A stretch of 50,130 bases of DNA from Marivita sp. (GTDB lineage Bacteria > Pseudomonadota > Alphaproteobacteria > Rhodobacterales > Rhodobacteraceae). The notes beneath the pieces are model-generated. The model was given only the letters and a program-made list of their open reading frames with translations. It did no database searches and had not been told where the DNA came from. The stretch covers positions 1 through 50,130 of the forward strand of contig NZ_JALEGT010000109.1 in NCBI RefSeq assembly GCF_022763305.1. Direction: 5' to 3'. Below, piece by piece: positions 35,993 through 50,130 of this stretch (the first letter of the stretch is position 1; the number at the start of each line of letters is the position of its first letter). Position numbers and translations under genes: made by a program.

Positions 35993-36849
35993 ACCAGAGC
36001 GCAACAATGCCCCCCCTGCCCGACCTGATCCTTGAACCGCTGGTCCGCGCCGCGCTGATCGAGGATCTGGGCACCTACGGCGACATCACCACCCGCACCG
36101 TCATTCCTGCCGGCACCACCTATGCCGCGCGGCTGAATGCCCGCGAACCGGGCGTGGTTTCGGGTCTGCAAATGGCCGCGCTTGCGTTCCGGCTGGTCGA
36201 TCCCGCGCTGCAGATCACCACGCACAAGGTCGATGGCGACGTGATCGCGCCGGGCGACCTGCTGATGGAGATCACGGGCGACGCGGCCTCGATCCTGTCG
36301 GGCGAACGGGTCGCGCTGAACTTTGCCGGGCGCATGTCCGGCATCGCCACGCTGACCGCCGCCTTCGTGGCCGAAACGCGCGGCACCGACGCCCGCGTGA
36401 CCTGCACCCGAAAGACGACCCCCGGCCTGCGTATCGTGGAAAAACAGGCCGTTCTGCATGGCGGCGGGTTCAACCATCGCTTCGGCCTGTCCGACGCGAT
36501 CCTGATCAAGGACAACCACATCGCGGCCGCCGGTGGCATCCGCCCCGTGCTGCAATCGGTCAAGGCGCGGGCATCCCACATGATCCGCTGCGAGATCGAG
36601 GTCGACCGCCTGGACCAGCTGGCCGAGGTCCTGGACGAGGGTGGCGCAGACGTTGTTCTGCTGGACAACATGGACACGTCAATGCTGGCGAAGGCGGTGG
36701 ACATGACCGCCCGTCAGGTGGTGCTGGAGGCCTCGGGCAACATGAAGCTGGACCGCATCGCCGAGGTCGCGGCGACGGGCGTGGACTATATTTCCTCTGG
36801 CGCACTGACCCATTCGGCGCAGATCCTGGACCTTGGGCTGGACTTCTGA
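35989..36849 (+). CDS. nadC: Nicotinate-nucleotide pyrophosphorylase (carboxylating) NadC
   Basis: The protein has 286 residues from the ATG at 35989. It turns quinolinate and PRPP into nicotinate mononucleotide, completing the de novo branch with NadA and NadB. Motifs: EDLGTYGDITTRTV, SGIATLTAAFV, CTRKTTPGLRIVEKQAVLHGGG, NHRFGLSDAILIKDNHI and IEVDRLDQLAEVLDEGGADVVLLDNM. Length and active-site residues are normal. A 124-bp gap separates it from panB. Confidence 0.96.
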   Translation: MNQSATMPPLPDLILEPLVRAALIEDLGTYGDITTRTVIPAGTTYAARLNAREPGVVSGLQMAALAFRLVDPALQITTHKVDGDVIAPGDLLMEITGDAASILSGERVALNFAGRMSGIATLTAAFVAETRGTDARVTCTRKTTPGLRIVEKQAVLHGGGFNHRFGLSDAILIKDNHIAAAGGIRPVLQSVKARASHMIRCEIEVDRLDQLAEVLDEGGADVVLLDNMDTSMLAKAVDMTARQVVLEASGNMKLDRIAEVAATGVDYISSGALTHSAQILDLGLDF

Positions 36850-36895
36850 ATCGGCAATCTACCGCGCACAGATATGACTTTTTCGTATATACAAA

Positions 36896-36910
36896 CGCAA
36901 TATTATTGCG
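36896..36910. promoter_or_regulatory. 15-bp palindrome upstream of panBC, overlapping a likely -10 box
   Basis: CGCAATA-T-TATTGCG is a perfect 7-bp inverted repeat around one base. TATTAT (36901-36906) within it would make a good -10 box for panB, although the matching -35 region is weak (TTTTTC near 36879). The 12-mer CAATATTATTGC recurs at 21894-21905, next to the promoter of the mobilisation operon. Confidence 0.4.
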
Positions 36911-36973
36911 CTGCACTTGCGAAAAGAGCCCCAAGCAGGTATCCCCTCGGAAGCCTGTCTGAGGAGGACCGAC

Positions 36974-37801
36974 ATGAGCCAATCCGCCCCGCAACGCAGC
37001 CTGACCGCGTCCGACATTCGTGCGCGCAAGGGGGCCGATCCGCTGGTCTGCCTGACGGCCTATACGACCCCCGTGGCCCAGCTGGCAGATGCGGACTGTG
37101 ATCTGGTTCTGGTCGGTGACAGCGTCGGCATGGTGCTGCACGGGCTGCCCTCGACCCTTGATGTCACGATGGAGATGATGGTCATGCACGGCCGCGCCGT
37201 CGCCCGCGGGCTGAACCGCGCGCTGATGGTCGTCGACATGCCCTTTGGCAGTTACGAGGAAAGCCCGGCCCAGGCCTTCCGCAACGCCGCGCGGCTGATG
37301 GCCGAAACCGGGGCCGGTGCGGTCAAGCTGGAAGGTGGCGCGCATATGGAAGACACGATCCGTTTCATCGTCGAACGCGGCATCCCGGTCATGGCGCATA
37401 TCGGTCTGACACCTCAGGCGGTGAACGCGCTTGGCGGCTACAAGGTGCAGGGGCGCGGCGCGGATGCGGACCGGATCCTGGAAGACGCCCGTGCGGTGAC
37501 CCGCGCCGGGGCGTTCTCGGTCGTGCTGGAAAAGGTGCCCGCCGCTCTGGCGGATCAGATCACCGCGGGTATCGACATTCCCACGGTCGGCATCGGGGCC
37601 TCTTCAGGCTGTGACGGACAGATCCTGGTGATCGACGACATGCTGGGCCTTTTCGATGCCTTCAAGCCGAAGTTCGTCAAGCGCTATGGCGATCTTGCCA
37701 GCGACGCCCGCACCGCCATCCGCACCTACGCCCAGGAGGTTCGCGCACGCAGCTTCCCGGCCCCCGAACATGTCTTTTCGCAGGAGGAACCAGGCACATG
37801 A
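36974..37801 (+). CDS. panB: 3-methyl-2-oxobutanoate hydroxymethyltransferase PanB
   Basis: The protein has 275 residues from the ATG at 36974 (GAGGAGG upstream). It adds a hydroxymethyl group from methylene-THF to ketoisovalerate, the first step to pantoate. The metal-binding and active-site motifs are present: [58 protein letters not shown] and [24 protein letters not shown]. It overlaps panC by 4 bp. PanE or another ketopantoate reductase is not in the window. Confidence 0.97.
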
Positions 37802-38685
37802 AGATCATCCGCACCAAGGCCGAGCTGCGCGCCCTCACGCAAAGCTGGCGTCGCGCCGGGGACAGCATCGGCGTGGTGCCGACCATGGGCGCGCTGCATG
37901 CCGGTCATCTGAGCCTGGTCGACCGCGCCTGCGACGAGAATGACCGCGTGATCGTGACGCTTTTCGTGAACCCCAGGCAGTTCAACAGCCCCGAGGATCT
38001 TGCGAAATACCCCCGGACCGAAGACAGCGATGCCGAAAAGCTGACGCCCTATGGCGCGGATGTCCTTTATGTGCCCGACGGCCCGCAGATGTATCCCGAC
38101 GGCTTTGCCACGACGATTTCGGTGACCGGTGTCAGCGCGGGCCTGTGCGGCGGGGCGCGGCCCGGGCATTTCGACGGCGTGGCCACGGTGGTGACCAAGC
38201 TTTTCCTGCAATGCGATGCCGACCGCGCGTATTTCGGTGAAAAGGATTACCAGCAACTTCAGGTGGTGATCCGGCTGGCCGAGGATCTGGATCTGAAGAC
38301 CGAGATCGTCGGCTGTCCGACCGTGCGCGAGGACGACGGCCTCGCCATGTCGTCGCGCAACCTCCGGCTCGGGCCCGGGCCACGCGAAATTGCGCCGGTG
38401 ATCGCCCAGGTCCTGGACGACGCCGCGCGTGTCATCTCCCGCGGCGGACAAGTCGCGCAGGCCCTCGATAACGCCAGGGCGGCGCTGCTCACTGCCGGGT
38501 TCGACACGATCGACTACCTGGAGTTGCGCAGCGATCCCGACCTCAAGCTGATGAACAGGGCAGACCGCCCCGGTCGCCTCTTCCTGGCCGCCTGGCTCGA
38601 TGGCGTGCGCCTGATCGACAATGTCCCTGTCGCGGGTCTCGCAAGCGTCCCGGCTCCCGAAGATCACCCGCTCGAGCCGGCCTGA
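37798..38685 (+). CDS. panC: Pantothenate synthetase PanC
   Basis: The protein has 295 residues. It joins pantoate and beta-alanine with ATP. Family motifs: [76 protein letters not shown] and [10 protein letters not shown], all intact. It is coupled to panB by the ATGA overlap. It ends 16 bp before the convergent HPP/CBS gene, leaving no room for a separate terminator. Confidence 0.97.
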
Positions 38686-38701
38686 CCCGGGCCGCCGCCT
38701 C

Positions 38702-39853
38702 TCAGTCCTGGGCTCGCAAACCGGACCGCGCGAGGGCGGCGATGAGATCCGTCCTGGTGACGATGCCGACGATCCGGCCCTTTTCAAGGACCGGCACCGC
38801 ATCGACATCACCATCGGCCATCATCGGCAGGAGCACTCCGACCGGAGTCGCCGGTACCGCCCGAGGCCCGGCGACGCTCATGATGTCCTTGGCTCGGACC
38901 GGCTGCGTACGATCCTGGTCGATCAGGCGCCGAAACGCCGCGAGATAGCCACGGTCGAGCCGAAGCGCATCCTCGCGCGCTCGGTCGATCAGGTGAATCT
39001 GGAAGATCACGCCAAGATAATGCCCCTCGACCCCGGTCACCGGAAGCGATGTGAAGCGATGATGTCTGAACAGGTCCGCAATCTTTGACAGCGGAGTGTC
39101 TGGGCCAATGGTCACCAGATTACGCGACATGACGTCGGTCGCGAGAAGCGGACCTGTCCGGTGCGCGGCGGCCTGCAACTCGGCCGCGCCGATCAACCGC
39201 GCCAGGTCTTCGACACCCAGATTGAACGACTGGCGATACCGGTCCAGCAGCTCTTTCAGTTCTTCTCGGGACAGCCCGATGCGCTTGGCGGGATCGGGAT
39301 CTTCGGTGCGGTGGCGACTTGGCTCATCGAACTGGCGGAATGGATATCTGCGCCCCGTGAGCCGGGCGTAGATCGCAGCACAGACGACCAGCGCGAGGGT
39401 GCCTGTGGCGACGGGCGCGATCGCGAACCAGAGTCCAAGTCGCTCGACCGCCTCCGGGCTCATCGCCGCTGTCATGGCGACCGCACCCGCCGGGGGATGG
39501 ATCGCGCGACACAGGATGCCGACCGTAATCGTCAGCCCGACCGCAAGGGCGATCCGCAGGACAGGGTCAGCGACCGCGGAACAGACCACCACACCGACCA
39601 GTGCCGCGAGAGTGTTGCCCACCACCGCCGACCACGGCTGCGCCAACGGGCTGTTGGGCATTGCGAACAGCAGAACCGACGTCGCACCGAACGGGGCAAT
39701 CAGGTAAAGGCCGAGCGTCAGGTCGACCACGGGCGACAACAGGAATGCGCCCGTCACCCCAAGCCCGATCAGGGCGCCGATCCCGGCGCGAAGGGCCTCG
39801 GCTGGCGAGGGGCGGCCAATAACCGGGCCAAGCGAACGGAACAGGGACTCCAT
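38702..39853 (-). CDS. HPP-family membrane protein fused to tandem CBS domains
   Basis: The protein has 383 residues from the ATG at 39853. The N-terminal half (about 20-180) is an HPP-type domain with four membrane helices and the signature AIHPPAGAVAM. The C-terminal half has two CBS domains: VMSRNLVTIGPDTPLSKIADLFRHHRFTSLPVTGVEG and AKDIMSVAGPRAVPATPVGVLLPMMADGDVDAVPVLEKGRIVGIVTRTDLIAAL. CBS pairs sense adenylates. HPP proteins have been linked to nitrite or small-anion movement. It lies between the pan and thi genes and has no evident functional link to them. Confidence 0.88.
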   Translation of the reverse strand: MESLFRSLGPVIGRPSPAEALRAGIGALIGLGVTGAFLLSPVVDLTLGLYLIAPFGATSVLLFAMPNSPLAQPWSAVVGNTLAALVGVVVCSAVADPVLRIALAVGLTITVGILCRAIHPPAGAVAMTAAMSPEAVERLGLWFAIAPVATGTLALVVCAAIYARLTGRRYPFRQFDEPSRHRTEDPDPAKRIGLSREELKELLDRYRQSFNLGVEDLARLIGAAELQAAAHRTGPLLATDVMSRNLVTIGPDTPLSKIADLFRHHRFTSLPVTGVEGHYLGVIFQIHLIDRAREDALRLDRGYLAAFRRLIDQDRTQPVRAKDIMSVAGPRAVPATPVGVLLPMMADGDVDAVPVLEKGRIVGIVTRTDLIAALARSGLRAQD

Positions 39854-39957
39854 GACTGCTGCCTTGTCTGTTTTGCCTAAAGTTTCAGCAAGCGACGGCA
39901 GGCGCAAGCACATCCGCCCGGCATTGAACCGGGCGCTCAGCCTGATAAGCTGCCGCT

Positions 39958-40055
39958 CACCTAGGGGTGTCCCGACAAGGGGCTGAGATATCGCTGGCGA
40001 TTGCAGCGCGGTGACCCTTTGAACCTGATCCGGATCATGCCGGCGAAGGGACAGG
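39958..40055 (+). ncRNA. TPP riboswitch (THI element) upstream of nudix-thiD
   Basis: The conserved THI-box pieces occur in order: AGGGGTGT, GGCTGAGAT, GTGACCC, TTGAACCTGATC, CGGATCATGCCGGCG and AAGGGACAG. They fold into the five-stem TPP aptamer. The downstream gene starts at 40104, so the expression platform is only about 50 nt and likely works by hiding the ribosome site (GAGG at 40094). High TPP should lower expression of the nudix and thiD genes. Confidence 0.95.
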
Positions 40056-40103
40056 ATCGCAGCGCTCTCTTGCCCTTGCCGGCCTCAGCATGACGAGGCC
40101 GCC

Positions 40104-40553
40104 TTGCCATATCAACCGACAGACCCACGCCCGATCCCGGCGGCCATCGCCGTAGTCGTGCGCGACACCCAGGTGCTTCTCGTGCGTCGCGCCAATCCGC
40201 CCGATGCGGGCCTTTGGGGATTTCCCGGCGGCAGGATTGACCCGGGCGAACCCCTGTTCGACGCAGCCATCCGCGAACTGGCCGAGGAGACCGGCGTTTC
40301 CGCAGACCCGCTGCGGGTGATCACGGCGCTCGACGCCTTTGATCACGACGGCACCGGCACCTTGCGCCGCCATTTCATCCTGGTCGCCGTCCTGTGCCGC
40401 TGGACCGCCGGAGACCCGATTGCCGCAGATGACGCGCTCGAGGCCCGCTGGATCGAGATCACGGCGCTGAAGGAAGGCCACCTCCCGCTCAGCCGCGATG
40501 TGGCCGAGCTTGCGGATCACGCGGCCGCCCTGATGGCAGAGGTGCCGGCATGA
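40104..40553 (+). CDS. Nudix hydrolase in the TPP-regulated operon
   Basis: The protein has 149 residues from TTG 40104, with GAGG 7 bp upstream. The Nudix box is complete (residues 47-69, GGRIDPGE...REL.EETGV) and there is an N-terminal strand IAVVVRDTQVLLVRRANPP. The TPP riboswitch and the 4-bp overlap with thiD link it to thiamine metabolism. It could hydrolyse HMP-PP, TPP or a damaged analogue, as E. coli NudJ does in vitro, but the substrate is inference. The HMP transporters normal at this place are absent. Confidence 0.85.
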   Translation: MPYQPTDPRPIPAAIAVVVRDTQVLLVRRANPPDAGLWGFPGGRIDPGEPLFDAAIRELAEETGVSADPLRVITALDAFDHDGTGTLRRHFILVAVLCRWTAGDPIAADDALEARWIEITALKEGHLPLSRDVAELADHAAALMAEVPA

Positions 40554-41356
40554 TCCCCAATGTTCTGAGCATTGCAGGCACCGATCCCTCGGGCGGCGCG
40601 GGTATTCAGGCCGATATCAAGACCTTCTCCGCGCTTGGCACCTATGCCTGTTCGGTCGTCATCGCCGTGGTTGCGCAGAACACCTGCGGCGTGCGGTCGT
40701 TTCAGGCGCTCGATCCCGCTTTCGTGGCCGACCAGATCGACGCGGTCTTCGACGACGTGCGCATCGACGCGGTGAAGATCGGCATGATCGCCAACGCCGG
40801 GATCGACCGCGCGGTGTCCGACCGGCTGCGCCATCACGCGGCGCGCAACATCGTGCTGGACCCGGTGATGGTGGCGAAAAGCGGTCATGCCCTTCTGGAC
40901 CCGCCGGCGGTTTCGGCACTGCGCGAGGCGCTGGTGCCTCTGGCAGCAGTCATCACACCGAACCTGCCCGAGGCCGCCGTCCTGCTGAACCGTCCCGACG
41001 ACTGGACCGCCGTGACCATGACCGCCGCCCTGCCTGAACTCCTGTCTCTCGGGTCCGACTACGTTCTGCTCAAGGGCGGGCACCTGTCGGGCGCGGACAG
41101 TACCGACCTGCTGGCCGGCCCCGAAGGTACGCAGACGCTGCGCGCGCCCCGTATCACCACGACCAACGATCACGGCACGGGCTGTACCTTGTCCTCGGCC
41201 ATTGCCGCGCTGTTGCCCTATCACGACATGCCCGGGGCCGTGACCCGCGCCAAGGCTTATCTGCATGCCGCGCTGGCCCAAAGCGATGCACTGGACGTGG
41301 GTCACGGACACGGGCCGGTGCATCATTTCCACGCACTCTGGGCGTCAGACGGTTAG
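40550..41356 (+). CDS. thiD: Hydroxymethylpyrimidine/phosphomethylpyrimidine kinase ThiD
   Basis: The protein has 268 residues. It phosphorylates HMP twice to HMP-PP for thiamine phosphate synthesis. Motifs: SIAGTDPSGGAGIQADIKTFSALGTYACSV, VKIGMIAN, DPVMVAKSG, TPNLPEAAVLL, LLKGGHLSG and the anion-hole DHGTGCTLSSAIAA. Normal length. It can act on salvaged HMP, important here because ThiC is defective. Its end overlaps the convergent thiE end by 12 bp. Confidence 0.96.
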   Translation: MIPNVLSIAGTDPSGGAGIQADIKTFSALGTYACSVVIAVVAQNTCGVRSFQALDPAFVADQIDAVFDDVRIDAVKIGMIANAGIDRAVSDRLRHHAARNIVLDPVMVAKSGHALLDPPAVSALREALVPLAAVITPNLPEAAVLLNRPDDWTAVTMTAALPELLSLGSDYVLLKGGHLSGADSTDLLAGPEGTQTLRAPRITTTNDHGTGCTLSSAIAALLPYHDMPGAVTRAKAYLHAALAQSDALDVGHGHGPVHHFHALWASDG

Positions 41357-41979
41357 CGCGTCGATCCTGTCCCTCAGGGCGCGGGCGGCGGCCTTGGGGT
41401 CGGGCTGGCCGCAGATGGCAGAAACCACGGCGACGCCCTGCGCCCCGGCCTTCAGGACCTGCGCCACGTGCTCGGCCTTCAGCCCGCCGATCGCCACGGC
41501 GGGCACCGGGCTGGCCGCAACCTGCGCCGCCAGCCCGTCAAAGCCCACGGGGGCCTTGTGATCCGGCTTGGAAGGCGTGGCAAAGACCGGCCCGGCCCCG
41601 ATGTAATCGACCAGCGCCGGATCGACCGATGCCGCCAGCGCCGGCGTCTCGACCGAGAAACCCAGCACCATCGTCGCACCGATCCGGGCGCGGGCCTCGG
41701 CCACGGCCATGTCGCCCTGGCCGATGTGCAGCCCGTCTGCGCCAATCGCAATGGCGGCCTCCACGTCGTCATTCACGATCAGCACCGCGCCGGTCCCCGC
41801 CAGCGCCGCCTTCAGCATGCGGCCCGTCTCGATCATCCGTTCCGTATCGGCCGCTTTGTCCCGCAGCTGCACCACCGTCGCCCCGCCCGCCACAGCGGCG
41901 CGGGCCGTGGCGATCACGCCGACCCCGGCGCAGAGGCCGGGATCGAGCACGAGGTAAAGCGAGAGGTCGGGGCAGCACC

Positions 41980-41983
<4 letters not shown>
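41345..41983 (-). CDS. thiE: Thiamine-phosphate synthase ThiE
   Basis: The protein has 212 residues from GTG 41983, overlapping the thiM stop. It joins HMP-PP and HET-P (thiazole phosphate). Motifs: VVQLRDKAADTERMI, LIVNDDVEAAIAIGADGLHIGQGD, VLGFSVETPA, VDYIGAGPVFATPSKPDHKAPVGFDGL and VPAVAIGGLKAEHVAQVLKAGAQGVAVVSAI. These cover the diphosphate and thiazole sites. It is the last gene of the TPP-regulated minus-strand operon. Confidence 0.95.
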
Positions 41984-43474
<1,491 letters not shown>

Positions 43475-43616
43475 TGAGTGCCCGCAGGCTGTTCTGGGCG
43501 CGCGCAAATGTCAACGCACGATAAGAGGGGCCATTATCGTTACCGCTCCAGCGGATGATTTCGGCGGGGCGATCCATCTGTGCTGAACTGGCTGAACTCA
43601 ACCAAAGGAGTTCAGC

Positions 43617-44054
43617 ATGTCCCGCTTCGATCATACCGCCATCGTCAATTCGCGCCGCCGTCAGCGCAGCCTCGGCCACCACGCGCTGCGGGCCTATGCC
43701 CAGGAACGGGGGCGCTTCTTCAATGTCGTGGACCTGGTGAACAAGCTCGATGCCGAAGCCCGTGCCGACCGACAGGGGCGCACAGCAGACCTGCTCTGCC
43801 GCCTCGACTTCCTGATACTCGACGAGCTCGGCTATCTCCCCTTCGCGCAAACTGGCGGCCAGCTGCTGTTCCATCTCATCAGCCGGCTCTACGAGCGCAC
43901 CTCGATCATCGTGACGACCAATCTCGACTTCGGGGAATGGCCTTCGGTCTTCGGCGACGCGAAGATGACCACTGCGCTGCTCGACCGCCTGACCCATCAC
44001 TGCGACATCGTCGAAACCGGCAACGAGAGCTGGCGCTTCAAGACCCGAGAATGA
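43617..44054 (+). pseudogene. istB: Truncated IS21 helper ATPase IstB
   Basis: Residues from about 34 onward match IstB closely: [23 protein letters not shown], the Walker [77 protein letters not shown]. The first 33 residues do not match, and the Walker A (GTGKTHLA) and the N-terminal domain are gone. The ATG at 43617 with AAAGGAG before it may allow expression of a short protein, but it could not bind ATP normally. Confidence 0.82.
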
Positions 44055-44124
44055 CCGACACTCACGCTCCAAGGGGGTCATTTTTGGACGCCGATAAGGG
44101 GTCAAGATTGTGTGCCGATTGACA
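43617..44124 (+). mobile_element. Remnant of an IS21-family element (right end)
   Basis: The right end is clear. After the istB stop comes a typical IS21 terminal array with GGGTCATTTTTGGACGCCG and the outer end reading TGTCAATCGGCACAC on the minus strand (44124 inward). istA, the left end and the N-terminal part of istB are missing. The left limit is not resolved, somewhere near 43550-43640. A 9-bp inverted repeat, GCTGAACTC-N8-GAGTTCAGC, lies just before 43617 and may mark the junction. Confidence 0.8.
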
Positions 44125-44198
44125 GATAGCGTGCTCAGCAGGGCAAAGGACTCTAGATGAGAGCCTGCTTGAGAGAGGAACCGGAGTCTTTACTGAGA

Positions 44199-44251
44199 AG
44201 AACGGGCATGATACCCGTTCTCTAGTCAAGATCGGGTATGGTGCCCATTCT
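44199..44251. promoter_or_regulatory. Twin palindromic operators upstream of the MerR-like regulator
   Basis: AGAACGGG-N7-CCCGTTCT (44199-44221) is a perfect 8-bp inverted repeat. An imperfect copy, AGATCGGG-N7-CCCATTCT, lies at 44229-44251. The two start exactly 30 bp apart, about three helical turns, and share the spacer pattern YATGRTR. A possible promoter TTGAGA-N16-TACTGA (44169-44196) lies just before. The regulator start at 44266 follows the second copy, so autoregulation by a dimeric DNA-binding protein is likely. Confidence 0.65.
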
Positions 44252-44265
44252 CGGGGAGGGTCCCA

Positions 44266-44784
44266 CTGCGATACGTCCCGACACAAGTGGCGTCCGAACT
44301 AACTGGCCTTTCGACGGATAAACTTCGCGAGTGGACCAGTAGGCGTGCACTGATACCAGCCGATGTCCGACCAAAGAAGAAGGGTTCCCCTGCCAAATTC
44401 ACTTGGCAGACGATTCTAGTGTTGAGAATTGCGGTGCTTCTGCGTGAGAGATTCCATCTTGAACTGCAAGCGCACAGAACATCTTTCATCAATTTGCGGT
44501 CCGATCTGCGAAAGCGATCCTTCATTACATTGTGGGGACATCGGGTGGCTATGACCCCGGACCAATGGACGATCCTTGATGAGGAAGACCTGATAGCACA
44601 AGATGATGCGCTACTGATCCGCCTTGACCCACACTTGCGCGTACTGCGAACTGGGTTTGCGCTCCCTGATGTCGCCGCAGGCCGCGGACAACTCGACCTC
44701 TTTTCTCTGGCGAACCTGCACCGCGCTGAAGGCTCGAAAGCACCAGCCAAAGCAGCTGAGTCTGACCAGAGGCGTTCTGCATGA
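44266..44784 (+). CDS. MerR-like helix-turn-helix regulator of the methyltransferase module
   Basis: No ATG suits this frame. The domain starts at RYVPTQVASELTGLSTDKLREW, so I place the start at CTG 44266, with GGAGG 6 bp upstream (172 residues). GTG 44287 would cut into the helix-turn-helix. Residues 5-55 look like a MerR/excisionase winged helix (LTGLSTDKLREWTSRRALIPADVRPKKKGSPAKFTWQTILVLRIAVLLRERFHLEL). The C-terminal half (ITLWGHRVAMTPDQWTILDEEDLIAQDDALLIRLDP) is unknown. It lies behind twin operators and ahead of the DNA methyltransferase, as a control protein would. Confidence 0.65.
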   Translation: MRYVPTQVASELTGLSTDKLREWTSRRALIPADVRPKKKGSPAKFTWQTILVLRIAVLLRERFHLELQAHRTSFINLRSDLRKRSFITLWGHRVAMTPDQWTILDEEDLIAQDDALLIRLDPHLRVLRTGFALPDVAAGRGQLDLFSLANLHRAEGSKAPAKAAESDQRRSA

Positions 44785-44799
44785 GGGCTGGCGGAAATC

Positions 44800-44854
44800 T
44801 GCCAAAGTCGATTTGGCAAACCCCTTTGTTAAACTTGTTTGTTCCTGTTATGTT
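44800..44854 (+). promoter_or_regulatory. Promoter and palindrome upstream of the methyltransferase
   Basis: TTGTTA (44826-44831) and TATGTT (44849-44854) are 17 bp apart and form a good sigma-70 promoter for the methyltransferase start at 44888. Upstream of it the palindrome TGCCAAA-N5-TTTGGCA occupies 44800-44818. A close copy, TGCCAA-N6-TTGGCA, lies inside the regulator gene at 44391-44408. A hairpin TCTCGC-TTG-GCGAGA follows the -10 at 44854-44868. Confidence 0.5.
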
Positions 44855-44887
44855 CTCGCTTGGCGAGACTTTAGATGAGCAATAGCT

Positions 44888-47800
44888 ATGAGCGCGGAAT
44901 CGATGCAGAATTGGCTGGAGAGGCTCGGCTACAATGCTGAACCTGCCGTCTTGCATCGTCGCGGCGATGACGTTCCCGAAACTCATCCATATGCACTTGA
45001 ACTCAAGACCCTCCTGAGACCGGAAGGTCCAATACGTGCTCACGCGGTCTTTGACGTGGAGGGGGTGCCTACCGTCGTGTTCGTAGGAGAAGATGGAGAT
45101 CCTCTTTCGTCTCAAGCGCTCGACGAAATCCGCAAACGTGTTTGGAATCAAAATCTTGCTACTATAGTCATTGAAATCAAAGGCGACACAGCCCTAGCTG
45201 TGCCTGCCCGAAAGCTGCGTAACGCAGGCCAACAGCTTATCCTTGATGACGCCCGACCGGACGGTCCTTTCTCTGCGCTCGACATAGCCTCTGCCAATGT
45301 CTCCCGGCGCGTTCCCAACTGGTTTGATGTAAAGGCGCGAGTCGACCGAAAGTTGCTCGCGAACCTCTCCGTTGTCGTCTCACAGCTTGCCGATCAGGGC
45401 CTCTCGGGAGCATCGAAGGATCACGATCGCCGTCATCTGGCCGAGCTGCTTATGGGCCAGATTCTGTTCGTCTCCTATTTGGAACATCGCGAGATAGTCG
45501 GCGCCACTTACCGCGATCGCCGCCAAGTCTCTCAACTCCATCATCTGATCGCCGAGAAAGATCGGGCTGGACTCAGAACACTGATTGACGCGCTTCGATC
45601 GGATTTCAATGGCGACTTCATGGGAGATGATCGCCACGATCCCTGGACCAAACTTACGGATGACGGCTTTAACCTGATCAATCGCTTTCTACAGCGCACT
45701 GATATGCGAACCGGCCAAGGTGATTTTTGGAACTACGATTTCAGCTATATTCCGGTCGAGTTACTTTCTGGTCTCTACGAGTCTTTCTTATCGGATGAAC
45801 AGCAGGCTAAGGACGGCGCGTATTACACGCCACGTCACCTTGCTATGCTCGCGGTCGACCAGGCGTTCACGAATTCATCCGACCCACTCTCTGAAACGAT
45901 TTTTGACGGTGCATGCGGCTCCGGCATACTCCTGACCACGGCCTATCGTCGGCTGATCGCGCTGTCAGAAGCACGCGAAGGGCGTCAACTGAGTTTCCGC
46001 GAACGCGCAGACCTGCTCCGAGGTCGTATTTTTGGCGGCGACATCAATTTTATGGCCTGCCGTGTCACAGCGTTCAGTCTCTATTTGTCGCTCCTGGAAG
46101 GCCTAAATCCTGCCGACATCATGGAAGCGCAGGAACGAGAGGGGACGAAACTGCCGTCATTGAACGGCTCAAACCTTACCTATGGTGAGGACGCAGCAGA
46201 CTTTTTCCGCGATGATCATGCTTTCAGCGGTAAGCGCTTCTCGCTCATTATCTCGAATCCGCCATGGGCCGAACCTGAAGGCTCCTCTAAGACGAGCGCA
46301 GACGCTTGGGCAGAACGTGCCGAAGCTCCATTTGTGCGCCGCCAGATAGCCGGCGCGTATGCGTTGCGCGCGATAGACTTTCTGCAGGCGGGGGGGCAAA
46401 TCTGTCTCATCTTGCCAATTGGGCAGTTTCTCGGACCGTCCAGTACGGGGTTCGTTTCGCATCTGCTAGAACAGTATCAGCCGTCACGATTGATCAATTT
46501 TGGTGATCTCCAGGGACTTCTTTTCCCCACTGCAGAGAATACCTGTCATGTCTTCCTTGGCATTGTACGGCCAGAACGGCTTCCGAGCAGAATCCCCTTC
46601 GATGAGAATTTCGAATACTGCGTGCCTAAAGCAGATATGAGTCTTGCTCTTGGCCGGCTGACAATGCAGTCCGCCGACAAACATCATCTTCAAACGCGCT
46701 CAGTGGCGGAAGACCCCCAACTTCTCGTGACTATGATGTGGGGCGATGCAAACGACCTTTCAATTTGGGCGCGTCTGTCCGCACACGGCACATTTTCTGA
46801 TTTCTGGCGCGGACCTCACGAATATCGTCGCTGGATATACCGAAAGGGGATCCATCTAAACGACAGGAGTCGCGAGCCGGTCAACGCCGGACCGCTCCGC
46901 GACAAGCCGTTTATACCGATAGCTGCGCTGAGCGCTGGTTCACCTGTCTTGCACTCAGACTTACTTACATCGTGGCCAAAGGGCCAGGACACTGTTGTCG
47001 GTCTAAACGAGTCGGTGCTGAGTGTATTCGATGGCCCGCGCGTCTTGTTCCCGGATGGGTTTTCTAGGGAGCAGTTAAATGTCCGAGCGGTCTACTATGA
47101 TGGACCCGCAGCTTTTACCCACAGCATCGGCGTGATCTCCGGACCGAAGGAGGACGCTGAACTTCTCAGCTTCGTTGCCGTATATCTACGCTCAAGTCTT
47201 GCGCGCTACTTCCTGATGATGCGTGGCTGGAAGATGCTGTGCGAACGCAATGGTGTTCACCTCAAGGACGTCGAGACGTTTCCGTTCTTTATGCCGGAGA
47301 ATGCTCCCGACGGGGCAGTTGCAGCCGAAGCGCTGTCGAGCGTCTCTCGCCATGTGTCCGAAATCACCGAACTCCCTGAACTTGAACAAAGCGCGCGCTA
47401 TGAAGAATTGAGGCCAAAGCTGGATCGGGCAGTGTTTTCCTATTTTGGCCTTGGCTCCGAGGAGCAGAAGCTTGTCCGTGAAACAGTCGATGTTTTCATG
47501 CCGTCCATCCGGCCACGTGGTTTCAAGAGCCTCGACACACCAGCACAGCACACTGCTCAGCGCAGTGACTTCAAGACTTACGCTCGTGCACTTGCAACAT
47601 CACTTACGGATTGGCGAGCCAAAACGCATGGCAAGGGACGCTTCCACGTCGATGTGGTAACCAGCGATCCTAGGCGAGCTGGTCCATCTGGAATCGTTCG
47701 CATCTCATACAAGGAGAAGCCTACCTCGGCGCCCGTCGTGGAGACGCAAGTAAGCGATGCGCTTGTCCTGCAAACACTCGAGCAATTGCGCATTTCAGGT

Positions 47801-47995
47801 CTGAGAGCCATTCCTCTAGGAGATTCCCTGACGCTGGTCCCGGATGCCCATATCTGGATCGATCAATCGCTTTACCTCGTGCGACCGCTTACCAAACGCA
47901 ACTGGACCATACGGCAAGCACTCCGTGATGCTGAACAAATTGTAAGAACGGTACAAGCCCGCGCTGCATCCGGAAAACGGGGAGTGTCCGCGTGA
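44888..47995 (+). CDS. N6-adenine DNA methyltransferase, large (type IIG/BREX-like architecture)
   Basis: The protein has 1035 residues. Residues 1-130 form an unassigned alpha/beta domain (VPTVVFVGEDGDPL, VWNQNLATIVIEIKGDTALAVPARKL). The methyltransferase core is at about 300-520: DGAYYTPRHLAMLAVD, motif I FDGACGSGILLTTAYRRL and motif IV ISNPPWAEPEGS. Residues about 620-850 look like a target-recognition region. The C-terminal 130 residues end in LYLVRPLTKRNWTIRQALRDAEQIV. It is not a plain type I HsdM. GC content is visibly lower than in the vitamin genes, suggesting separate acquisition. The stop overlaps the nuclease start. Confidence 0.85.
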   Translation: MSAESMQNWLERLGYNAEPAVLHRRGDDVPETHPYALELKTLLRPEGPIRAHAVFDVEGVPTVVFVGEDGDPLSSQALDEIRKRVWNQNLATIVIEIKGDTALAVPARKLRNAGQQLILDDARPDGPFSALDIASANVSRRVPNWFDVKARVDRKLLANLSVVVSQLADQGLSGASKDHDRRHLAELLMGQILFVSYLEHREIVGATYRDRRQVSQLHHLIAEKDRAGLRTLIDALRSDFNGDFMGDDRHDPWTKLTDDGFNLINRFLQRTDMRTGQGDFWNYDFSYIPVELLSGLYESFLSDEQQAKDGAYYTPRHLAMLAVDQAFTNSSDPLSETIFDGACGSGILLTTAYRRLIALSEAREGRQLSFRERADLLRGRIFGGDINFMACRVTAFSLYLSLLEGLNPADIMEAQEREGTKLPSLNGSNLTYGEDAADFFRDDHAFSGKRFSLIISNPPWAEPEGSSKTSADAWAERAEAPFVRRQIAGAYALRAIDFLQAGGQICLILPIGQFLGPSSTGFVSHLLEQYQPSRLINFGDLQGLLFPTAENTCHVFLGIVRPERLPSRIPFDENFEYCVPKADMSLALGRLTMQSADKHHLQTRSVAEDPQLLVTMMWGDANDLSIWARLSAHGTFSDFWRGPHEYRRWIYRKGIHLNDRSREPVNAGPLRDKPFIPIAALSAGSPVLHSDLLTSWPKGQDTVVGLNESVLSVFDGPRVLFPDGFSREQLNVRAVYYDGPAAFTHSIGVISGPKEDAELLSFVAVYLRSSLARYFLMMRGWKMLCERNGVHLKDVETFPFFMPENAPDGAVAAEALSSVSRHVSEITELPELEQSARYEELRPKLDRAVFSYFGLGSEEQKLVRETVDVFMPSIRPRGFKSLDTPAQHTAQRSDFKTYARALATSLTDWRAKTHGKGRFHVDVVTSDPRRAGPSGIVRISYKEKPTSAPVVETQVSDALVLQTLEQLRISGLRAIPLGDSLTLVPDAHIWIDQSLYLVRPLTKRNWTIRQALRDAEQIVRTVQARAASGKRGVSA

Positions 47996-48705
47996 CAGCA
48001 GCCGACGATTGGTTTGCGGCATTCCCCATTCAGCCAGCGACCGAAGCCGTTGAAGCGCTTTGCCAAGCATGGACCGAGTTGGCTGAACGGCCACGGCCTG
48101 ACTTCAACCCCAAAACTAATGAAGCAGCGCTAACGAAGCGACTTAAGGTCTACATAGAAAATTACACAGCACGCGAGCGTGGCCTACTCGGCATGTGGGC
48201 AGCTGAGGATATCATTGGCGAGATAGATCCTGCGACGGGCGCAATGATCGAAGAACGCCGAACCGATATTGTCTATGGCTGGAACGACTCCACCCAGGAT
48301 CTAAAGTTCGTCTTCGAGTTTAAGCGCCTAGGAAGGCAGAAACGACACCGAGACCACTATCTACGCGAAAATGGCTTGGCTCGTTTTGTCACTGGAATTT
48401 ATAGTCGGCGTCAAGCAGTTGCTGCCATGGTTGGTGTTCTTCTTGATCCCGAGCCGGATGTAGTTCCCCCCATTCGGGAAATGCTGAGTCAGGAAGAAAT
48501 GGTCGCCGAACTCAAGCTCCGGCCTGCTGCGGACGGCTTAGCCGTTATCCAACCATCCGCTTTGTTTAGCGCCGCCGACTTCGACACAGAGCATGAGAGA
48601 GACCCCACCTTGGCGCCCTCTCACGGCCACATACGTGTTGCCCATTTCTTTCTGCCGTTCGGGTATCCGACGACGACGAAAAAGCCGAAAGGTCCAAAAG
48701 TATAA
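47992..48705 (+). CDS. Probable PD-(D/E)XK nuclease partner of the methyltransferase
   Basis: The protein has 237 residues from GTG 47992, overlapping the methyltransferase stop by 4 bp. The core RRTDIVYGWNDSTQDLKFVFEFKRLG (residues 84-109) has the PD-(D/E)XK pattern: Asp on a strand (TDIVY), about 15 residues, then E-F-K (FVFEFKRL), with an upstream Glu in NYTARERGLLGMWAAEDIIGEID. An Arg-rich helix RQKRHRDHYLRENGLARFVTGIY follows. Restriction endonucleases of this fold are often this small. No specificity can be read from sequence. It could instead be a repair nuclease. Confidence 0.7.
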   Translation: MTAADDWFAAFPIQPATEAVEALCQAWTELAERPRPDFNPKTNEAALTKRLKVYIENYTARERGLLGMWAAEDIIGEIDPATGAMIEERRTDIVYGWNDSTQDLKFVFEFKRLGRQKRHRDHYLRENGLARFVTGIYSRRQAVAAMVGVLLDPEPDVVPPIREMLSQEEMVAELKLRPAADGLAVIQPSALFSAADFDTEHERDPTLAPSHGHIRVAHFFLPFGYPTTTKKPKGPKV

Positions 48706-48753
48706 CAACAAGGGACCGAGGATGAGGAGCGGGCCGGCGGTAATGGACATTTT

Positions 48754-48800
48754 GTAGGCTTCGTGCTACATAATCAGTAAATCTGTAGCGCGAAGGCTTC
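48754..48800. promoter_or_regulatory. Operator candidate upstream of hipBA
   Basis: Two 16-bp inverted arms, GTAGGCTTCGTGCTAC (48754-48769) and GTAGCGCGAAGGCTTC (48785-48800), match at 13 of 16 positions when one is reversed and complemented. They are 15 bp apart, ending 5 bp before the hipB start. The A+T-rich spacer (TACATAATCAG) could hold the -10 box. HipB-type repressors bind such paired sites. Confidence 0.55.
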
Positions 48801-48805
48801 AAATT

Positions 48806-49141
48806 ATGCCGACTCCACACCATCCCTCTGTTGCCGTGCGACGCACGCTCCGCAAGTTGGGGTCAGACATCCGCGACGCACGACGTCGACGCAAACTGCC
48901 CATGGCGGTCGTGGCAGAACGCGCCTTCACGTCCCGCTCGACCCTTCAGAAGATCGAGGCGGGCGACTCGAACGTCGGAATCGGGATTTACGCCTCTGTT
49001 CTGCAAGCTCTCGGCCTGCTGGATGGCCTTGGCGGCATCGCTGACATCAGCCGTGATGAAATAGGTCAGTCTCTCGCAAGCGCAAACCTACCCCGACGGG
49101 TTCACCTCAAAAACAAGTCAGGGCGGTCCTCCCGTGAGTGA
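48806..49141 (+). CDS. hipB: HipB-like XRE-family antitoxin
   Basis: The protein has 111 residues with an XRE helix-turn-helix: VRRTLRKLGSDIRDARRRRKLPMAVVAERAFTSRSTLQKIEAGDSNVGIGIYASVLQALGLLDGL. The C-terminal tail is polar and basic. It overlaps the HipA start by 8 bp, the usual antitoxin-first order. A paired inverted repeat lies directly upstream. It should bind that operator and neutralise the HipA kinase. Confidence 0.85.
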   Translation: MPTPHHPSVAVRRTLRKLGSDIRDARRRRKLPMAVVAERAFTSRSTLQKIEAGDSNVGIGIYASVLQALGLLDGLGGIADISRDEIGQSLASANLPRRVHLKNKSGRSSRE

Positions 49142-50130
49142 TATAGAAGTTCATATCGATCTTCATGGACAAACCCGACCGATCGGGATCGCCCACGCCA
49201 ACCTAGTTCGCGGGAGCGAAACCGTTGTGTTCGAATATATCGAGGGCTGGCTCAATGACCCTGAGCGCTTCTCAATCGAGCCCGCCCTCGCATTGACACG
49301 CGGCGGCTTTGCACCACCGCAAGGCCAAGCCATTTTCGGATCACTCGGTGACTCAGCCCCGGATACCTGGGGGCGTCGCTTGATGCAGCGTGCGGAGCGT
49401 CGACTCGCTGACCGCGAAGGCAGACAGGTCCACACACTTACGGAAACCAATTACTTGCTCGGCGTAGCTGATGAGACCCGCCTAGGTGCACTGCGCTTTC
49501 GACGCGTGGGCGCAGAAGAGTTCCAAGCTCCCATTCGGGCGGGCGTTCCAGCCGTCATCGAACTCGGCCGCTTGCTACAGGTCACCGAACGCATCCTACG
49601 AGACGAGGAGACCGATGAGGACCTGCAACTAATCTTTGCGCCAGGATCTTCACTCGGAGGCGCGCGCCCTAAGGCGTCGATCATCGACCAACATGGTCAT
49701 CTGTCCATCGCGAAGTTTCCGAAAGAAACGGATGAATACAGCATGGAGACCTGGGAGGAGATCGCGCTTCGGCTTGCCGAACGTGCCGGGATCAACACCC
49801 CCAGTCACGAACTCGTCGAGGTCGCCGGTAAGGCCGTGCTCCTTTCGAGGCGTTTTGACAGGGAGGGCAACAAACGAATTCCGTTCCTTTCCGCCATGTC
49901 TATGACCGGTTCGAGAGATGGGGAACGCGGTAGTTACCCTGAGATCGTCGACGCTTTGGGAGGGCAAGGCGCGCATGCAAAGACGGATGCCGCTGAGCTC
50001 TACAGGCGCGTTGCTTACTGTGTTCTGATCTCGAACGTGGACGACCATCTCCGTAATCATGGGTTCCTATGGGCGGGAAGGGTGGGCTGGACACTCTCGC
50101 CAGCTTACGACTTGAATCCAACGCCAGTCG
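49134..50130 (+). CDS. hipA: HipA-like kinase toxin, cut by the window end
   Basis: The frame opens at GTG 49134 and runs past the end, so about 332 residues are visible of about 430. The N-terminal subdomain has ALTRGGFAPPQGQAIFGSLGDSAPDTWGRRLM. The Gly-rich loop is APGSSLGGARPKASI. The catalytic loop is SNVDDHLRNHGFLW and the metal site is SPAYDLNP. HipA phosphorylates a translation factor (GltX in E. coli). All kinase motifs seen are intact, so the pair is probably active. Confidence 0.88.
   Translation, partial: MSDIEVHIDLHGQTRPIGIAHANLVRGSETVVFEYIEGWLNDPERFSIEPALALTRGGFAPPQGQAIFGSLGDSAPDTWGRRLMQRAERRLADREGRQVHTLTETNYLLGVADETRLGALRFRRVGAEEFQAPIRAGVPAVIELGRLLQVTERILRDEETDEDLQLIFAPGSSLGGARPKASIIDQHGHLSIAKFPKETDEYSMETWEEIALRLAERAGINTPSHELVEVAGKAVLLSRRFDREGNKRIPFLSAMSMTGSRDGERGSYPEIVDALGGQGAHAKTDAAELYRRVAYCVLISNVDDHLRNHGFLWAGRVGWTLSPAYDLNPTPV

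Follow-up and report, generated by a model that had tools for sequence, protein, structure and literature searches.

A putative mobile restriction-modification system in Marivita sp. that joins a large adenine methyltransferase to a separate candidate PD-(D/E)XK-type nuclease

What do three adjacent genes at positions 44199-48705 of a contig of Marivita sp. (NZ_JALEGT010000109.1) encode, and do they work together? The window analyzed here, a stretch of 50,130 nucleotides (nt), carries at this place on the + strand a MerR-like regulator, an N6-adenine DNA methyltransferase (MTase) of 1035 amino acids (aa) and a third protein of 237 aa, preceded by two palindromes (Table 1). We propose, with a probability of about three in four, that they form a mobile two-subunit restriction-modification system consisting of the large MTase, a separate PD-(D/E)XK nuclease and a MerR-like autoregulator. 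The MTase, related to those of type IIG and bacteriophage exclusion (BREX) systems, would methylate adenine at a recognition site of the host DNA, and the small PD-(D/E)XK protein, made by coupled translation, would cut unmodified invading DNA, probably acting as a subunit together with the MTase. The MerR-like protein would set the expression level by binding a tandem pair of palindromes at the promoter of its own gene, as C proteins do elsewhere; it would balance MTase and nuclease and may delay or limit their expression on entry.

Of central interest is the third protein, which an earlier note on this DNA had called nuclease-like with little confidence. A3, an alignment of the window protein with 14 relatives (17-51% identity), has nine invariant columns (E44, T48, D92, E109, K111, F132, M146, H201, H218), and seven remain in the 25 sequences of A6, the window protein and 24 relatives at 15-47% identity (E44, D92, E109, K111, F132, M146, H218). 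An E, a D and an E-x-K in that order and spacing constitute the PD-(D/E)XK signature. Because E44, D92, E109 and K111 are invariant across such diverse relatives, in the right order and with suitable spacing in all 25 A6 sequences, we infer that the third protein has this fold and is a PD-(D/E)XK-type nuclease, and the call can be made more firmly than before. A6 corresponds to A3 plus 11 sequences minus one and omits L041, L052 (a near-copy) and L072 (a near-copy of L102); most of the 11 were found by the A3 profile, so the set is not wholly blind. A3 and A6, like the MTase set A5 and the regulator set A8 used below, are hand-picked diverse sets, and a further nuclease alignment, A1, joins the window protein to 27 of 39 nuclease loci, without copies or near-copies (L001, L002, L003, L010, L011, L013, L014, L015, L023, L028, L029) and L027, which has an internal stop. 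Five plasmid nucleases collected later and lying outside A6 (L104, L106, L107, L108, L110) keep the D..E-x-K by eye. The invariant F132 and M146 and the near-C-terminal H218 fall outside the usual signature. In the annotation of plasmids (H61, H63-H74), 13 of 16 nuclease relatives are named "Fis family transcriptional regulator", a name to which the conserved residues give no support.

The third protein itself has no match in Pfam, PADLOC, NCBIfam or PHROGs. The 25 members of A6 belong to no PADLOC family and give only five single-member hits in NCBIfam, with E-values of 0.04-0.11 and unrelated names. Pfam scans of 28 and a further 15 members also returned single-member hits only (E at least 0.068), among which PDDEXK_9 at 0.15 is not evidence.

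The large MTase, called in the earlier note from its motifs, passes the Pfam cut-offs for N6_Mtase (50.7 bits) and Eco57I (46.1 bits). Its DGACGSG and NPPW motifs are invariant in A2, an alignment of 26 sequences comprising the window protein and 25 of the 40 fetched loci (relatives at 55-89% identity; near-copies, cut loci and the broken L030 omitted). The PADLOC model REase_MTase_IIG (PDLC03623) matches residues 4-1028 with 851 bits, and it also matches 14 of 14 MTases in A5, which holds the window protein and 13 relatives at 21-61% identity. The module had been described as a little-described one; this stands for the partner and fails for the MTase, for which that model exists. The NCBIfam models reach it only far below threshold: PglX at 28.1 bits (cut-off 400), MAD2 at 28.8 (720) and TIGR02987 at 15.1 (353.5). 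Its solved relatives in the PDB include type I M subunits, BrxX, BsaXI, BpuSI and MmeI, and the matches fall within ~240-592 of the protein or profile, in and just before the MTase domain, bar one chance-level hit. The C-terminal region presumably recognises the target; no clear swap of a recognition region between close MTases was seen in A2 by regional identity. In the distant relatives L053, L100 and L110, the MTase is split into catalytic and C-terminal pieces in adjacent frames, which resembles M and recognition subunits or may reflect a frameshift.

The genes are linked well beyond this contig. We gathered 41 loci by MTase and own-genome searches, mainly via the MTase, and a nuclease relative lies 3′ of the MTase in 39 of them, the other two contigs ending inside the MTase. 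In the window, the GTG start of the nuclease overlaps the TGA of the MTase by 4 nt (GTGA), and an overlap of this length is found in 36 of the 39 loci when the nearest start codon is picked by script; the translational coupling stated in the earlier note would fit this overlap, which is the part that we observe. A regulator relative stands 5′ in 34 of the 37 close loci that contain the 5′ region; four of the seven remaining loci among the 41 are cut. The trio thus recurs as a unit in close relatives, beyond chance, and the co-occurrence that the earlier note had wanted to see checked extends, for the MTase-nuclease pair, to distant relatives. No fourth gene is common to most of the 41 loci, the next clusters occurring in at most 8 of them, and therefore neither HsdS/HsdR nor BREX genes recur beside the trio.

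Profile searches of genomes gave the same picture; they score the best candidates per genome, so that misses are possible. Of 398 Pseudomonadota genomes, the nuclease profile A3 picked out seven, and a separate search with the MTase profile A5 (E ≤ 1e-30) arrived at exactly these; in 7 of 7 the MTase so found has the partner gene next to it. A second draw, of 385 Alphaproteobacteria, yielded 10 genomes with the nuclease, and eight of these were new and blind. Over both draws, the nuclease profile detected 15 distinct genomes, and in every one an A5-type MTase is the gene immediately 5′ of the nuclease, on the same strand; in L100 and L101 that MTase is in two pieces. Among plasmids, 62 records have an MTase match, and 17 of the 19 that we opened (hand-chosen) carry the nuclease 3′. 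The layout of a type II system with separate genes, an MTase gene beside a nuclease gene, is thus found in 15 of 15 genomes and 17 of 19 plasmid records.

The regulator gene lies in an open frame at 44254-44784. Its homologous start is the CTG at 44266, while the first ATG, GTG or TTG is the GTG at 44287. Among 35 rows, homology places the start at a CTG in 13, the window and its near-copies among them; nine rows have TTG, six ATG and four GTG, with three unplaced. A Shine-Dalgarno-like GGGAGG precedes the CTG at 44266, a rare start codon. The window protein scores 17.4 bits against Pfam MerR, below the cut-off of 28.2, and its relative in L055 exceeds the MerR_1 cut-off (25.8 versus 21.6 bits). 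An alignment of the window protein with 11 proteins encoded at the corresponding place elsewhere, at 14-84% identity to it, leaves W23 as the sole invariant residue. The profile of this alignment, A8, detects a relative 5′ of the pair at eight loci that had contributed no sequence to it (L050, L054, L062, L072, L075, L098, L100, L102). Among the 15 genomes, a regulator relative stands 5′ of the pair in eight (G000, G323, G155, G016, G328, G559, G645, G688), of which G328 gave A8 a row and G323 was recognised by sequence.

The two palindromes 5′ of this gene, O1 and O2, have centres 30 bp apart, and the pair is present in most close relatives. After 35 upstream regions were cut to 25 by removing near-copies, the two-palindrome score was better than 300 dinucleotide shuffles (p ≤ 0.033) in 22, the regions of L019, L016 and L028 being no better than their shuffles, and the best spacing was 30 bp in 18 of the 22. 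Between loci, the two arms covary in their letters (AACGGG/CCCGTT, ATCGGG/CCCGAT), which is how a palindrome conserved for protein binding should behave. A whole-genome scan with the operator pattern, which was derived from the same loci, found matches below three mismatches only at O1 and O2; those with three mismatches occur at control level. Because the operator pair is conserved and has no other close match in the genome, the data suggest that the MerR-like protein is a putative dedicated autoregulator acting on O1 and O2.

The trio also moves as a unit. Between the window and G323, the aligned segment covers window positions 44198-48677 at 95.5% identity, and nothing else aligns in the 18-20 kb loci; against Parvibaculum (L024), it covers 44184-48689 at 82%, again with nothing else aligned. 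The transferred unit is therefore made of the operators and the three genes, up to the last codons of the nuclease, in different contexts. In G323 it sits between conjugation-type genes and an integrase-like gene (open reading frames named by eye), and neighbour clusters found in 5-8 of the 41 loci include a coupling protein, a TrbE-type ATPase, a relaxase and an integrase (one representative of each scanned). Compared with Pseudooceanicola pacificus, the flank at 36216-43173 is 91% identical and 43169-50130 is 99.6% identical, a jump that points to recent transfer or exchange. Two contigs of a viral collection carry the MTase-nuclease pair, one of them with the regulator, and phage records gave no match to the MTase or the nuclease. 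TIR-domain and SIR2-family genes are annotated near two plasmid copies (L055, 11235-12362; L064, 10788-11140), which suggests defence islands.

The PADLOC label invites another explanation, namely that the MTase is a single-chain type IIG enzyme and the third gene an unrelated hitchhiker. The near full-length match to PDLC03623, shared by all the A5 MTases, speaks for it, as does a D147-x-K149 that is nearly invariant in A2. The nuclease site that such a chain should hold was sought by a conservation test: in A5 no D, E or K is invariant before motif I, and D147-x-K149 is lost in several rows; in A2 no E-x-K is invariant, the IEIK at 95-98 varying (IEVT, IELR and others) with K98 not kept. The chain thus has the N6_Mtase/Eco57I-kind domain of type IIG enzymes, and by conservation it does not unite nuclease and MTase in one polypeptide. 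Because no conserved nuclease triad was found in the MTase chain, the type IIG label does not appear to fit, in agreement with the earlier note, which had set this layout apart from single-chain type IIG on account of the separate downstream nuclease gene. A hitchhiker would also hardly adjoin the MTase in every genome that the MTase profile found, and a partner gene is lacking beside one distant relative that has a PD..ESK stretch of its own at the N-terminus, the type IIG-like Thermus plasmid protein L105 (16.7 bits against HSDR_N_2, cut-off 25). We consider this explanation highly improbable. By eye, the N-terminal domain of the window MTase resembles the N-terminus of L105, and we considered whether it could be a decayed PD-(D/E)XK nuclease; hhalign gave a probability of only 0.3% for that likeness and 0.5% against the partner nuclease, and the idea was dropped as speculation. 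PF13588 has no match in the own genome, so that there were no loci to compare (it gave hits in 4 of 14 control genomes). A mechanism of the BREX kind, or exclusion by methylation only, in which the MTase marks self and phages are blocked without cutting while the small protein is an accessory serving some other step, could draw on the fact that the MTase weakly resembles PglX and MAD2. These scores lie far below the curated cut-offs, no other gene is common to most loci, and an invariant E, D and E-x-K would be needless in an accessory without catalysis, so we regard it as improbable.

The orthodox type II arrangement deserves more weight and is still unlikely in our estimate. Here the 237-aa protein would be an independent restriction enzyme that recognises the site itself, and the MTase would only protect. 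Type II systems ordinarily encode modification and cutting in separate genes, and the mean distance of the nuclease (0.33) is close to that of the MTase (0.30), as expected of an enzyme with its own specificity. An MTase of ~1000 aa is, however, far larger than orthodox MTases and matches the type IIG model over nearly its full length. A natural deletion also bears on the question. In plasmid p2 of Pseudosulfitobacter pseudonitzschiae (L057, 5881-8177), an in-frame deletion fuses the first ~42 residues of the regulator to the MTase near residue 536 and removes motif I and NPPW, and the nuclease frame is open with RRTDI..VFEFK and an intact triad. An MTase match shortened to the same extent occurs in 12 plasmid records, of which one was opened. 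In L030 the MTase lies in three frames beside an open nuclease frame, and L027 has its internal stop in the nuclease. An independent enzyme left beside such an MTase should be lethal unless silent; if the partner nuclease is obligate, loss of the MTase would be harmless. The intact nuclease beside a lost catalytic half is thus a hint that the nuclease depends on the MTase. Nuclease and MTase distances correlate at r = 0.94 over 26 loci, uncorrected for shared descent, which alone would also yield such co-divergence. A more specific version of our proposal, which we hold only tentatively and at somewhat less than even odds, is that these are type-IIG-like MTases whose nuclease has been handed to a small obligate partner that needs the MTase chain in order to cut, that the control gene in front is interchangeable (MerR-like here, other small DNA-binding proteins elsewhere), and that they form a distinct class on plasmids and integrative elements of Pseudomonadota; many "type IIG" calls in defence censuses would in that case miss the true nuclease.

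Several observations weigh against the two-subunit system with its autoregulator as we propose it. Sequence searches of the PDB with the nuclease gave chance-level hits only and no relative. The seven genomes found by both profiles are in part those from which the profiles were built, since both A3 and A5 include sequences from G000 and G194, and A5 also draws on G155; G323 holds a near-copy of the window system, and G016, G193 and G328 contributed to neither. Two of the 19 opened plasmid records have an MTase match without a nuclease, one of them being the Thermus record described above and the other an Anaerococcus MTase of only 372 aa. The dependence of the nuclease on the MTase rests on one plasmid lineage, which counts once, and on L030, which may be a sequencing error, and a silent promoter or an unexpressed nuclease may also explain survival without the MTase. 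No sigma-70 promoter match was found at O1/O2. The regulator is lacking despite long upstream sequence in three of the 37 close loci (L018, L025, L040), and A8 finds none in seven of the 15 genomes (G194, G193, G640, G468, G481, G677, where the contig is cut, and G446); for these reasons the MerR-like gene is not essential to the MTase-nuclease pair. Other small genes stand in its place, encoding an HTH_11 protein in L049 (G194), a protein with a sub-threshold HTH_3 match in L061, and other small proteins in L059, L063 and L064, two of them ribbon-like by eye. As the regulator is patchy and other small proteins occur at its position, the MTase and the nuclease make up the constant core, in front of which one control gene is exchanged for another.

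Among known systems, we predict from the sequences that this one functions in the manner of type II restriction-modification, with an MTase that is type-IIG-like. Type IIG enzymes (PADLOC REase_MTase_IIG, PDLC03623 and PDLC03603) share the MTase family, the N6_Mtase/Eco57I domain and the chain of ~1000 aa, and differ in that here the chain has no conserved triad and the nuclease comes from a separate downstream gene. The Alw26I/Eco31I/Esp3I family (TIGR02987) also combines an adenine MTase with a separate nuclease gene, but the MTase score is far below the cut-off of that model and the third protein belongs to a family without a significant NCBIfam match. Type IIH systems of the AhdI kind, compared by description only, likewise have an elaborate MTase, a separate PD-(D/E)XK nuclease and a small control protein. 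AhdI has M and S subunits and a C protein of the XRE type, whereas here there is one MTase chain and a MerR-like protein. BREX PglX and MAD2 of MADS show a distant MTase similarity, with no recurring fourth gene here. Type I systems differ as well, for no HsdS/HsdR-like fourth gene is common to most loci and the transferred unit is three genes; the claim of the earlier note that the layout is neither type I nor BREX is thereby borne out. We found no description of the pair or the trio in the titles and abstract beginnings covered by our literature search, which did not extend to REBASE or most subscription papers, and this silence is no proof that the trio is unpublished.

The features of the locus and its neighbours are listed in Table 1.

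Table 1. Coordinates of the trio, its control region and the adjacent genes, as positions in the window.
Feature	Position	Strand	Basis
IstB remnant of IS21 element, neighbour	43617..44054	+	IstB_IS21 140 bits, profile positions 112-235 of 238
Palindrome O1 AGAACGGGCATGATACCCGTTCT, candidate operator	44199..44221	.	one of conserved pair
Palindrome O2 AGATCGGGTATGGTGCCCATTCT, candidate operator, 30 bp from O1	44229..44251	.	one of conserved pair
MerR-like regulator, 172 aa from inferred CTG start	44266..44784	+	5′ gene in 34/37 loci containing the region
N6-adenine DNA MTase, 1035 aa	44888..47995	+	Pfam, PADLOC, invariant motifs
MTase motif I DGACGSG, residues 340-346, presumed S-adenosylmethionine binding	45905..45925	+	invariant in A2
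MTase catalytic motif NPPW, residues 457-460	46256..46267	+	invariant in A2; N457 and P459 invariant in A5
Candidate PD-(D/E)XK-type nuclease partner, 237 aa	47992..48705	+	start overlaps MTase stop; conserved residues
Nuclease D92 (48265-48267), E109 (48316-48318), K111 (48322-48324)	48265..48324	+	invariant in 25 sequences of A6
HipB-like helix-turn-helix gene, neighbour outside the system	48806..49141	+	HTH_31 30 bits (cut-off 27); couple_hipB below cut-off
HipA-like gene, neighbour, cut by window end	49134..50130	+	HipA_C 139 bits

All of the surroundings named in the earlier note were found, the HipB/HipA-like pair lying 3′ of the three same-strand genes and the IstB remnant 5′. The lower guanine-plus-cytosine content reported for the region is true only of one side: the trio has 54-55% and the 4 kb on its left 64-71%, but low values also occur in the right flank (55-59%) and at the start of the window (54-57% over its first 4 kb), so that the step is one-sided. 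Farther to the left, a ThiC-like gene of 200 aa (42783-43382, - strand) aligns to the ThiC model over no more than its final ~100 positions, and in the relative L002 the frame open at this place runs to 577 aa; a large internal part has thus been deleted from the window copy or is missing from the assembly.

PADLOC recognises only the MTase of the trio and files it as single-chain type IIG. If our proposal is true, MTases filed as single-chain type IIG would have their missing half in a nuclease family that matches nothing significantly in Pfam, PADLOC or NCBIfam, and defence surveys would describe such loci wrongly. Since nature provides an MTase deletion beside an intact nuclease, whether cutting depends on the MTase can be tested directly. 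The trio is small (4.5 kb), mobile and readily testable, and its operator pair would offer a handle on how such a system is established in a new host.

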